Source: Pseudobdellovibrionaceae bacterium
GTDB lineage: Bacteria; Bdellovibrionota; Bdellovibrionia; Bdellovibrionales; Bdellovibrionaceae
NCBI GenBank assembly: GCA_019637915.1
Contig: JAHBUV010000001.1
Span: forward strand, 1,954,565-2,018,564
Direction of reading: 5' to 3'
DNA: 64,000 bases
Shown here: piece by piece, positions 60,040 to 61,836 of the stretch
Layout: each line of letters begins with the position of its first letter
How positions within the stretch are numbered: the stretch's first letter is position 1
Notes under the pieces: model-generated
Databases searched by the model: none
Told to the model about the DNA's origin: nothing
Seen by the model: the letters and a program-made list of their open reading frames with translations, nothing else
Position numbers and translations under genes: made by a program

Positions 60040-60058
60040 GTTGGTGCTTGGTACGGGG

Positions 60059-60130
60059 GTTCTTTGTTTTCGAATGGGCGTCAAAAACGCTCAGACATGC
60101 GTTTTCGCCGCCCATTCGAAAACAAAGAAC
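60059..60130. repeat. 22-bp perfect inverted repeat with inner hairpin
   Basis: Arms at 60059-60080 and 60109-60130 are perfectly complementary over 22 bases. Inside, AAAACGC (60084-60090) pairs with GCGTTTT (60099-60105) around an eight-base loop, with a symmetric 3x3 mismatch between stems. The whole forms one long hairpin. No T-run follows. Confidence 0.85.
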
Positions 60131-60155
60131 GCCTTCATCCAGAGACAGAAACGAA

Positions 60156-60212
60156 TCCCAAAAACGAAAAAAGACGCCGAGTCACTCGAGCGTCTTTTTT
60201 GCATTTTTGGGA
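60156..60212. terminator. Bidirectional terminator in an extended palindrome
   Basis: The core stem AAAAAAGACGC (60167-60177) and GCGTCTTTTTT (60190-60200) gives a T-run on either strand. CGAG and CTCG (60078+100 region, 60178-60181 and 60185-60188) pair at the tip. The outer arms TCCCAAAAA (60156-60164) and TTTTTGGGA (60204-60212) also pair. It serves both fliC read-through and the end of the tig transcript. Confidence 0.85.
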
Positions 60213-60244
60213 ATAGGTGCGCTGGTTTTTATAATGATGAGGTC

Positions 60245-60388
60245 GGAGAGCTGGGCTGGGGGCGGGGGCTGCCTTTTGGGGGACCTCCGCGGGGTCTGGA
60301 AGACCCTCGACCGCGAAGCGGTCGAAGCGGAAGAGGCATGGAGGCCGTGTCCCCCAAAAGGCAGCCCCCGCCCCCAGCCCAGCTCTCC
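60245..60388. repeat. 39-bp perfect inverted repeat enclosing multi-hairpin tip
   Basis: Arms at 60245-60283 and 60350-60388 are perfectly complementary over 39 bases. The inner 66 bases contain CCTCC (60284-60288) with GGAGG (60340-60344), GGGTCT (60292-60297) with AGACCC (60301-60306), and TCGACCGC (60307-60314) with GCGGTCGA (60318-60325). The arm carries runs of G3, G5, G5 and G5, a G-quadruplex pattern. It ends 20 bases beyond the tig stop and would lie in the tig 3' untranslated region. No open reading frame within it is convincing. Confidence 0.9.
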
Positions 60389-60408
60389 GGCCGGGCGTCG
60401 TTTGAAAA

Positions 60409-61722
60409 CTAGATCTGCTCTTCTTTCAAAGCGGAGGCCGGGACCTCTTTCACTTTGGCGGATTTGTTGAGCAGATCGATGACCTTTTCTTCGGTGATCA
60501 TGTAGGTGAGACGGCTCATCTGTTCCGGTTTGGCGTAGAATTCGCGGATGCGGGATTCCTCGATGCCGGTTTGCTGGGCGTACTCTTTGAACTTGTTGTC
60601 GACGTCTTCCGGTTTGCAGACGAGGTCGTGCTTGCGGGCGATGGCGTCGATCAGGAAGCTCGACTGGATCATTTCAGCGGCGGTCTTTTCGAAGTCCTTG
60701 TCCCACTTCTGGACGTAGCTTTCGAATTCGGCGTGCGACAGGCCTTGCTCGTGCATGCGCTTGTGGAAGTCCTCGATGAGGGCGGCCTTCTGGTCTTTCA
60801 GCAGGCTCGGCGGAACGTCGAGGGGGTTTTCTTTCACCAGTTGCTTCAACAGGCGGTTTTTGAAACCTTCGTCAATGCGGCGTTGCTCGTTGTTTTTGAG
60901 GTCGTCGCGGATCGAGTTTTTCAGGTCATCGAGATTTTTCGGGCCGCCCAGGGTGGCGATGAATTCGTCATTCAGCTCGGGCAGGTCTTTCTTTTTCAGG
61001 GCCTGCAGCTTCACTTTGAATTCGACCGGTTTGCCGGCGAGTTCGGCGGAGTGGTAGGGGGTCGGGAATTTCAGGTTCAGGGTGGTGGAACCGCCGACCT
61101 TCATGCCGGTGACGCCCTCTTCGAAACCCTCGATGAAGGAGTTGGTGCCGAGCTCGAGCTCGTGGTTCTGGCCGGCGCCGCCTTCGAGGGCCTGGCCGTC
61201 GACGAAGCCTTCGAAGTCGATGACGGCGACGTCGCCTTTCTGGGCCGGACGGTCATCCAGCACGTCGACGAGGGAGGCGCGCGAGGCGCGGATGTTCTCG
61301 AGGACCTGGTCGACTTTTTTCTCGTCGATTTCCAGTTTTTCTTTTTCGACCTCGAGGCCTTCATATTTTTTCAGATTGATTTCAGGACGCACGTCAAACA
61401 CCGCCGTGAATGAAAAGTTTTTGGTTTCGGAAGGGTCTTCAAATTCGAATTCGGGGGAGGAGATGGGATCCAGTTTGTGCTCCGACAAGGCTTTGCCGTA
61501 GTTCGATTGGATCAGTTCCTGGGCCACGTCCTGGGTGACGCGGTCGCCGTACAGGCTCTTGACGGTGGCCAGGGGGGCTTTGCCTTTGCGGAAACCTTTG
61601 ATGGTCACTTCCCGTTGGATGCCCTCAAACACGCGTTTGTAGGCGGAGGCCACGGCTTCGGCCGGGATCTCGACATTCAGTTTTCTCTGCAAAGAAGAGA
61701 CTTTATCAACACTCGATTTCAT
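60409..61722 (-). CDS. tig: Trigger factor chaperone / peptidyl-prolyl isomerase
   Basis: The 437-residue product has the ribosome-binding signature GFRKGKAPLA (N-terminal domain), an FKBP-like domain starting GDVAVIDFEGFVDG (about 150-240), and a helical C-terminal arm. It binds at the ribosomal exit tunnel through L23. ATG 61722 with GGAG upstream is preferred over a GTG at 61734. Usually followed by clpP and clpX; here it is not, and the downstream region consists of inverted repeats. Confidence 0.95.
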   Translation of the reverse strand: MKSSVDKVSSLQRKLNVEIPAEAVASAYKRVFEGIQREVTIKGFRKGKAPLATVKSLYGDRVTQDVAQELIQSNYGKALSEHKLDPISSPEFEFEDPSETKNFSFTAVFDVRPEINLKKYEGLEVEKEKLEIDEKKVDQVLENIRASRASLVDVLDDRPAQKGDVAVIDFEGFVDGQALEGGAGQNHELELGTNSFIEGFEEGVTGMKVGGSTTLNLKFPTPYHSAELAGKPVEFKVKLQALKKKDLPELNDEFIATLGGPKNLDDLKNSIRDDLKNNEQRRIDEGFKNRLLKQLVKENPLDVPPSLLKDQKAALIEDFHKRMHEQGLSHAEFESYVQKWDKDFEKTAAEMIQSSFLIDAIARKHDLVCKPEDVDNKFKEYAQQTGIEESRIREFYAKPEQMSRLTYMITEEKVIDLLNKSAKVKEVPASALKEEQI

Positions 61723-61836
61723 TGAATTCTCCACGGGAAAAAGGTCGGCCGATCCTAGGGGATGCCCCTCTGAAAGGCAACATTTTTAGCGCAAAGCGCA
61801 ATGCGCCGGTCACACAAGCGCGAGAGACTGCGACTC

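Follow-up and report, generated by a model that had tools for sequence, protein, structure and literature searches.

A dispersed hairpin family with a conserved tip and variable stems, represented beside tig in a Pseudobdellovibrionaceae genome

Downstream of tig in the genome of a Pseudobdellovibrionaceae bacterium lies a long palindrome, which raises the question of whether it is a regulatory element of its neighbor, a mobile element or a palindrome without function. The analyzed stretch of 64,000 nucleotides is referred to as the window. An initial annotation had described a perfect 39-bp stem with a branched tip and a G-rich arm in the 3′-untranslated region of tig, for which no known family came to mind. 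Here, the palindrome was firmly assigned to a previously undescribed, dispersed hairpin family of Bdellovibrio-like predatory bacteria.

Structure and position of the palindrome beside tig

An inverted-repeat search identified two arms of 44 nt each (60241-60284 and 60349-60392) with a complementarity of 98%, which form the longest inverted repeat of the window. The only pair that is not of the Watson-Crick type is T60243-G60390, a G.T wobble. The stem is therefore real and slightly longer than the 39 bp first described. The minimum free energy of the element was calculated to be −143.6 kcal/mol compared to −82.1 kcal/mol (sd 4.5) for shuffled sequences (z = −13.6; none of 200 shuffles was equal). 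The inner hairpins with GGA and GAA loops and the additional 5-bp stem were found again by folding (Table 1).

Table 1. Features of the intergenic region and the palindrome in the window.
Feature	Position	Strand	Evidence or remark
Second long palindrome	60056-60133		35-nt arms, 91% complementary
Terminator-like hairpin	60157-60210		on the far side of the element from tig
Left arm of the stem (sequence varies within the family)	60241..60281	+	inverted repeat (the 44-nt arms also cover the tip's first bases), fold
Conserved branched tip, GACC...GTGTC	60282..60351	+	fold, alignment with other tips, covariance model R2, BLAST in relatives
5-bp stem TCCGC/GCGGA around hairpins A and B	60286-60290/60327-60331	+	fold
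Hairpin A, GGGTCT-GGA-AGACCC, loop GGA	about 60292-60306	+	fold
Hairpin B, TCGACCGC-GAA-GCGGTCGA	about 60307-60325	+	fold
Small third hairpin GGC-ATGGAG-GCC, loop ATGGAG	about 60335-60346	+	fold
Right arm of the long stem	60352..60392	+	inverted repeat, fold
tig (trigger factor)	60409..61734	−	Pfam Trigger_N, FKBP_C, Trigger_C; stop codon 60409-60411

As described before, the element is located between the stop codon of tig, from which it is separated by 16 bp, and the terminator-like hairpin. The 3′-end of tig faces the element, an arrangement that is usual for the right-hand neighbor of the hairpin family. The four G-runs noted in the left arm are present as well. The arms of other copies are often rich in A and T (e.g. 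in genome G309), so the G-rich arm belongs to the stem of the window copy only, and a G-quadruplex was ruled out as a conserved feature because the stems of the other copies are not G-rich.

The second long palindrome of the same intergenic region was also searched for in the genome. Its center (about AACGCTCAGACATGCGTTTT) recurs once, at G000:C1:2748870-2748897 (25 of 27 bases, E 5e-4), within a further long hairpin, the stem of which differs. Both could possibly belong to a second family with a fixed tip and a variable stem.

A dispersed family with a common tip and a preferred strand

A BLAST search with the whole element in its own genome resulted in the self-match only. The tip alone (about 60280-60353) matched sequences in relatives with E values down to 7e-9, and each of these matches is carried by its own long stem of different sequence. 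A covariance model (R2, replacing model R1, the structure of which was wrong) was built for the tip and detected it in 26 of the 66 genomes of the bacterial family and additionally in G309, G069 and G081, which represent three other families of the same order. The window tip, being one of the nine training sequences, reached 79.7 bits in its own genome (E 3e-17). The initial annotation had named a single unconserved copy as the result that would speak against its reading; the search of the own genome and of relatives revealed a dispersed family instead. A single-copy oddity or an assembly artefact was ruled out, as the family is present in many independent assemblies.

The own genome contains four real copies, namely the one beside tig and those at C1:1052516, C1:1321844 and C1:1134067. 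The tips of the last two are identical in 69 of 70 bases and share the inner stem, whereas their outer stems are different yet fully paired. An additional match at G000:C1:2113437 (R2 E 0.01) lacks a long stem and was discarded as false. Elsewhere, the copy number was 8 in G055, 14 in G309 and 11 in G007. Inverted pairs of copies, 160–430 bp apart, were observed at G006:C1:1313747/1314168, G033:C1:2598263/2598642, G036:C1:1191866/1192190 and G309:C57:51884/52044.

A scan of 84,980 species with the exact tip pattern resulted in matches in Bdellovibrio, by which the main genus of the family was named, and in one match in Nocardioides that is probably due to chance. On viral contigs, the tip pattern was not found. 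No credible Rfam family match was obtained for the window element, and matches to microRNA families below the Rfam cut-off merely reflect the long hairpin. The idea that the arms are anti-phage spacers was rejected after 34 arms had been compared to 50,697 phage records with no match.

On the + strand, the consensus of the tip is GRCCTYNG, P2, hairpin A (loop NGGAN), an optional hairpin B, P2′, GAGGC, AGGAN, GCC and GTGYC. The stems underneath comprise 25–70 bp and differ in sequence from copy to copy. Many copies also contain the foot motif AATTTG...CAAATCCCCGC and, close to the tip, an internal loop rich in purines. In one subfamily, a tip stretch, CCTTCGCGGGG, is complementary to CGAAGG and CCCCGC, two motifs of the foot; this match was discounted, since it is lost when the tip changes.

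In the ungapped stem core of 105 distinct copies, 92% of the pairs are of the Watson-Crick type. The mismatches were found to be strand-biased, with A·G in 99 cases versus C·T in 7 and G·T in 71 versus A·C in 32, and the bias survives the removal of the subfamily richest in A·G. Folding thus matters on the + strand, which is the transposase-sense strand of the insertion sequence described below. According to simple ORF calling, the right-hand neighbor points with its 3′-end toward the element at 43 of 57 sites and is usually antisense to the + strand. A 3′-UTR function in the facing gene would favor the other strand. An RNA with the sense of this gene was dropped as a candidate after the mismatch count, and the assignment of the element to the tig 3′-UTR was not supported. 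The best account is that the working form is the transposase-sense strand, either as RNA or as single-stranded DNA. The excess of A·G over G·T mismatches suits DNA slightly better, which is not decisive.

Turnover of the stems, gain at new sites and association with an insertion sequence

Orthologous copies could be compared at two sites, in about ten species each. One is located between genes which we take, from their sequences, to be prpD and prpB, and the other upstream of the SRP RNA gene (ffs, identified by Rfam) and a gene presumed to be dnaX. At the ffs-dnaX site, all 252 stem cells (28 pairs in nine species) are paired, and most stem positions occur in three or four Watson-Crick types. 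Counted on a MAFFT alignment, in which one row is shifted by a single base, 93.7% of the cells are paired compared to 55.8% in shuffles, and 26 of the 28 pairs have changed on both sides, a number reached by none of 500 shuffles. When the partner was slid by one column as a control, the pairing was about 50%.

The flanks and the tip diverge smoothly between species. In contrast, the arms are either near-identical or near-random at equal flank divergence. At the prp site, the arms of G049, G053 and G058 are 94–100% identical versus 41–69% for G057, with flanks of 86–94% identity throughout; the pairwise identities of such short random arms are inflated by the alignment. Since some arms are also mosaics, this points to a replacement of blocks in both arms and not to slow single compensations only. 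Recent copies in G007 differ by compensated single changes. The initial annotation had taken the perfect arms as a sign of recent origin, gene conversion or selection; they do reflect a continuing maintenance.

In 28 relatives, including a genome of the same genus, no such element was found downstream of tig, which is ended there by ordinary short terminators. The element is hence not special to the tig-fliC interval. The gene junction that carries an element at locus L043 in G055 is empty in 18 relatives. With relatives lacking the element at both places, the copies must have been gained. After the tig terminator of G045, a different long hairpin (AGGGCAAGATGCAAGGCGG...CAGTCAGCTTGCCCT) is present, which seems to be a repeat of another, unrelated type.

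In G007, four closely similar copies with unrelated flanks end in repeats of the type GAAACTGGCCCC...GGGGCCAGTTTC. For three of them, direct repeats of 7–11 bp were read by eye (AAATAAAAACG, TTCTAGTTT and TAAAGAA). The terminal repeats of these solo copies match those of the resident insertion sequence (IS) group, and the end of one (L089) is nearly the same as the right end of the resident IS, a sequence likeness that suggests mobilization in trans. In G039, three copies are located within a common IS, which is complete or decaying. It consists of a left end AAACTGATCC, a gene for a 290-aa transposase with a zinc ribbon, a helix-turn-helix (HTH) and DDE-like motifs, the hairpin and the right end GGATCAGTTT. 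The transposase matches the NCBIfam IS1 model NF033558 with E 2e-11 and 44 bits (cut-off 100) and Pfam DDE_Tnp_IS1 with a score of 16.7 (cut-off 24.1). Judged by these matches it is a distant relative of IS1, and as the curated models are not reached, it was not filed as IS1.

Among the transposase loci scanned, the nearest subfamily has six members from five species, all of which contain a long hairpin between the transposase stop codon and the right inverted repeat. The conserved tip was found in five of them (one weak, E 0.07); in the sixth, the foot is the same but the tip has changed. More distant transposase relatives, which end in GGGGCCAGTTT, have no hairpin; two of them belong to the own genome, in which only hairpin-less relatives were found. 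Terminal repeats were not recognized in most solo copies, and in G055 and G309, which contain many hairpin copies, no transposase of the nearest subfamily was found. The statement that no known small-RNA family fits the element holds for Rfam; that on mobile-element families was overturned by the dispersed copies, the gain at empty sites and the hairpin built into an IS1-like IS.

Two copies of an IS1-like IS without a hairpin in the own genome (G000:C1:970496-971326 and 154155-154985) have long terminal repeats AAACTGGCCCCTTAG.GTGGAGATGG. Their left ends are located directly at TAA or TAG (TTTTAA, CTTCTAG), which suggests an insertion at stop codons. A duplication was additionally observed around the gene of a distant IS1-like transposase (G000:C1:501000-505500 and 2416000-2420800), with identical sequences for 218 bp on the upstream side of this gene and for at least 1.5 kb on its downstream side.

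Origin of the hairpin and its possible roles

Taken together, the element beside tig is probably a solo copy of an IS-derived dispersed mobile hairpin of Bdellovibrionota, similar to a miniature inverted-repeat transposable element (MITE). Since neither recognizable terminal repeats nor a target duplication were seen at the window copy, we infer its mobilization and mode of arrival. The autonomous form would be an IS with a terminal inverted repeat of the type AAACTGRYCC, a distant IS1-type DDE transposase, the hairpin after the stop codon and a right inverted repeat. It would tend to insert next to convergent genes, with its right end at their 3′-ends. The hairpin might spread with or by the IS1-like transposase and be tolerated at gene 3′-ends. 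The working parts could be the tip, in which hairpins with NGGAN loops surround three-way junctions, and the internal loops that many copies have at the foot and near the tip, while the stem may serve as a spacer of free sequence with pairing kept on one strand. Selection for the folded transposase-sense strand most likely keeps the stem paired, hypothetically helped by a correction process in which one arm of the hairpin is the template for the other. The tip may act in transposition or control the transposase transcript; its first candidate binding partner would be the transposase. Solo copies seem to outlast the loss of transposase and terminal repeats, and some have been kept for long at fixed places (prpD-prpB and upstream of ffs-dnaX). 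These long-lived orthologous copies suggest a role in the host as well, and the best reading is a mobile hairpin that is partly domesticated and the arms of which turn over together. A more far-reaching version is possible, though not probable: the hairpin is used by the DDE-type IS as a cofactor or end, either in RNA form within the transposase transcript or in the form of single-stranded DNA, and a hairpin-templated process rewrites the stem blockwise in both arms, so that a fixed head is combined with a renewed stem.

Several known systems resemble the hairpin family. Like its copies, MITEs and further non-autonomous elements derived from bacterial ISs are short, palindromic, dispersed and gained at empty sites, and the G007 copies have terminal repeats in common with a resident IS and are flanked by direct repeats. 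Here, however, a branched tip is conserved on a long stem that is unconserved in sequence, most copies have no visible terminal repeats, and the hairpin is an internal module of a full IS. With IS1, the common features are the zinc ribbon, the HTH and a model match below the curated cut-off, and direct repeats of 7–11 bp overlap the IS1 range. The sequence is very distant, and a structured hairpin of about 150–200 bp after the transposase gene is not known from classical IS1. In integron attC sites, folding on a single strand likewise outweighs the stem sequence, but there the base is conserved and the tip variable, whereas the hairpin family has a conserved tip. Skipping-rope RNA (Rfam RF02924) is also a long hairpin with a conserved junction; no match above its gathering cut-off was obtained in 60 relatives or in the loci, in a search run without a positive control.

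A host regulatory RNA or 3′-end device that stabilizes or terminates the neighboring transcript (here tig), of which the IS merely acquired one, is the strongest rival, although an unlikely one. It would explain why gene 3′-ends are the usual site, why the places at prpD-prpB and ffs-dnaX were kept over about ten species and why covariation at the latter is complete. The stem mismatches, however, favor the strand antisense to the facing gene, the element upstream of ffs is located between divergent units, and tig of the relatives is ended by ordinary short terminators. In addition, none of eight published attack-phase small RNAs of Bdellovibrio (PMC3627812) overlaps a copy by coordinate in G036, which was taken to be HD100. 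A still less probable alternative is an RNA of the CsrA type with the GGA loops of the + strand as putative CsrA sites. Both conserved loops on the folded strand read NGGAN and the third hairpin of the window reads CATGGAGG, but there are only two such loops per RNA, mostly of five and not six bases, and by eye no conserved promoter was seen beside the copies; this explanation is very improbable.

Two further explanations are both improbable. REP/BIME elements are, like the hairpin family, extragenic hairpins often found at 3′-ends, fold on one strand and sometimes occur in inverted pairs. A REP-type repeat that a RAYT (Y1/HUH transposase) moves in the form of a single-stranded DNA hairpin would fit the folding bias, and Y1_Tnp genes are common (21 of 24 genomes of the genus, two genes in the own genome). 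The ten Y1_Tnp genes with the best scores, however, have no copy within 1.5 kb, and no Y1_Tnp match was obtained in G039, which has very recent copies, or in G069. Direct target repeats together with terminal inverted repeats fit a DDE element, and the hairpin is linked to the IS1-like gene instead. Its stems are variable in sequence and comprise 25–70 bp compared to about 20 nt in REP elements. A neutral palindrome without function, kept perfect solely by arm-to-arm mutational correction (quasipalindrome template switching), would account for arms that are near-perfect though unalignable between orthologues, for block-like changes in both arms and for paired changes already present in the recent G007 copies. 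It predicts equal mismatch classes on both strands, the opposite of what was observed, and conserved tips, conserved internal loops and strand-biased mismatches are unexpected without selection. Correction alone would also leave the dispersal unexplained.

Repeat families are normally recognized by their sequence. In this family, most of the hairpin is unalignable between copies and kinship is visible via the structure and a short tip only, which is why repeat finders and Rfam miss such elements. If the strand bias stems from a folded intermediate, the life of a DDE-type IS would involve a structured nucleic acid; RNA components of other IS groups (IS200/IS605, IS110) currently attract wide interest. 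With their apparently blockwise changes, the arms provide a natural system in which the correction of palindromes in bacteria can be measured.
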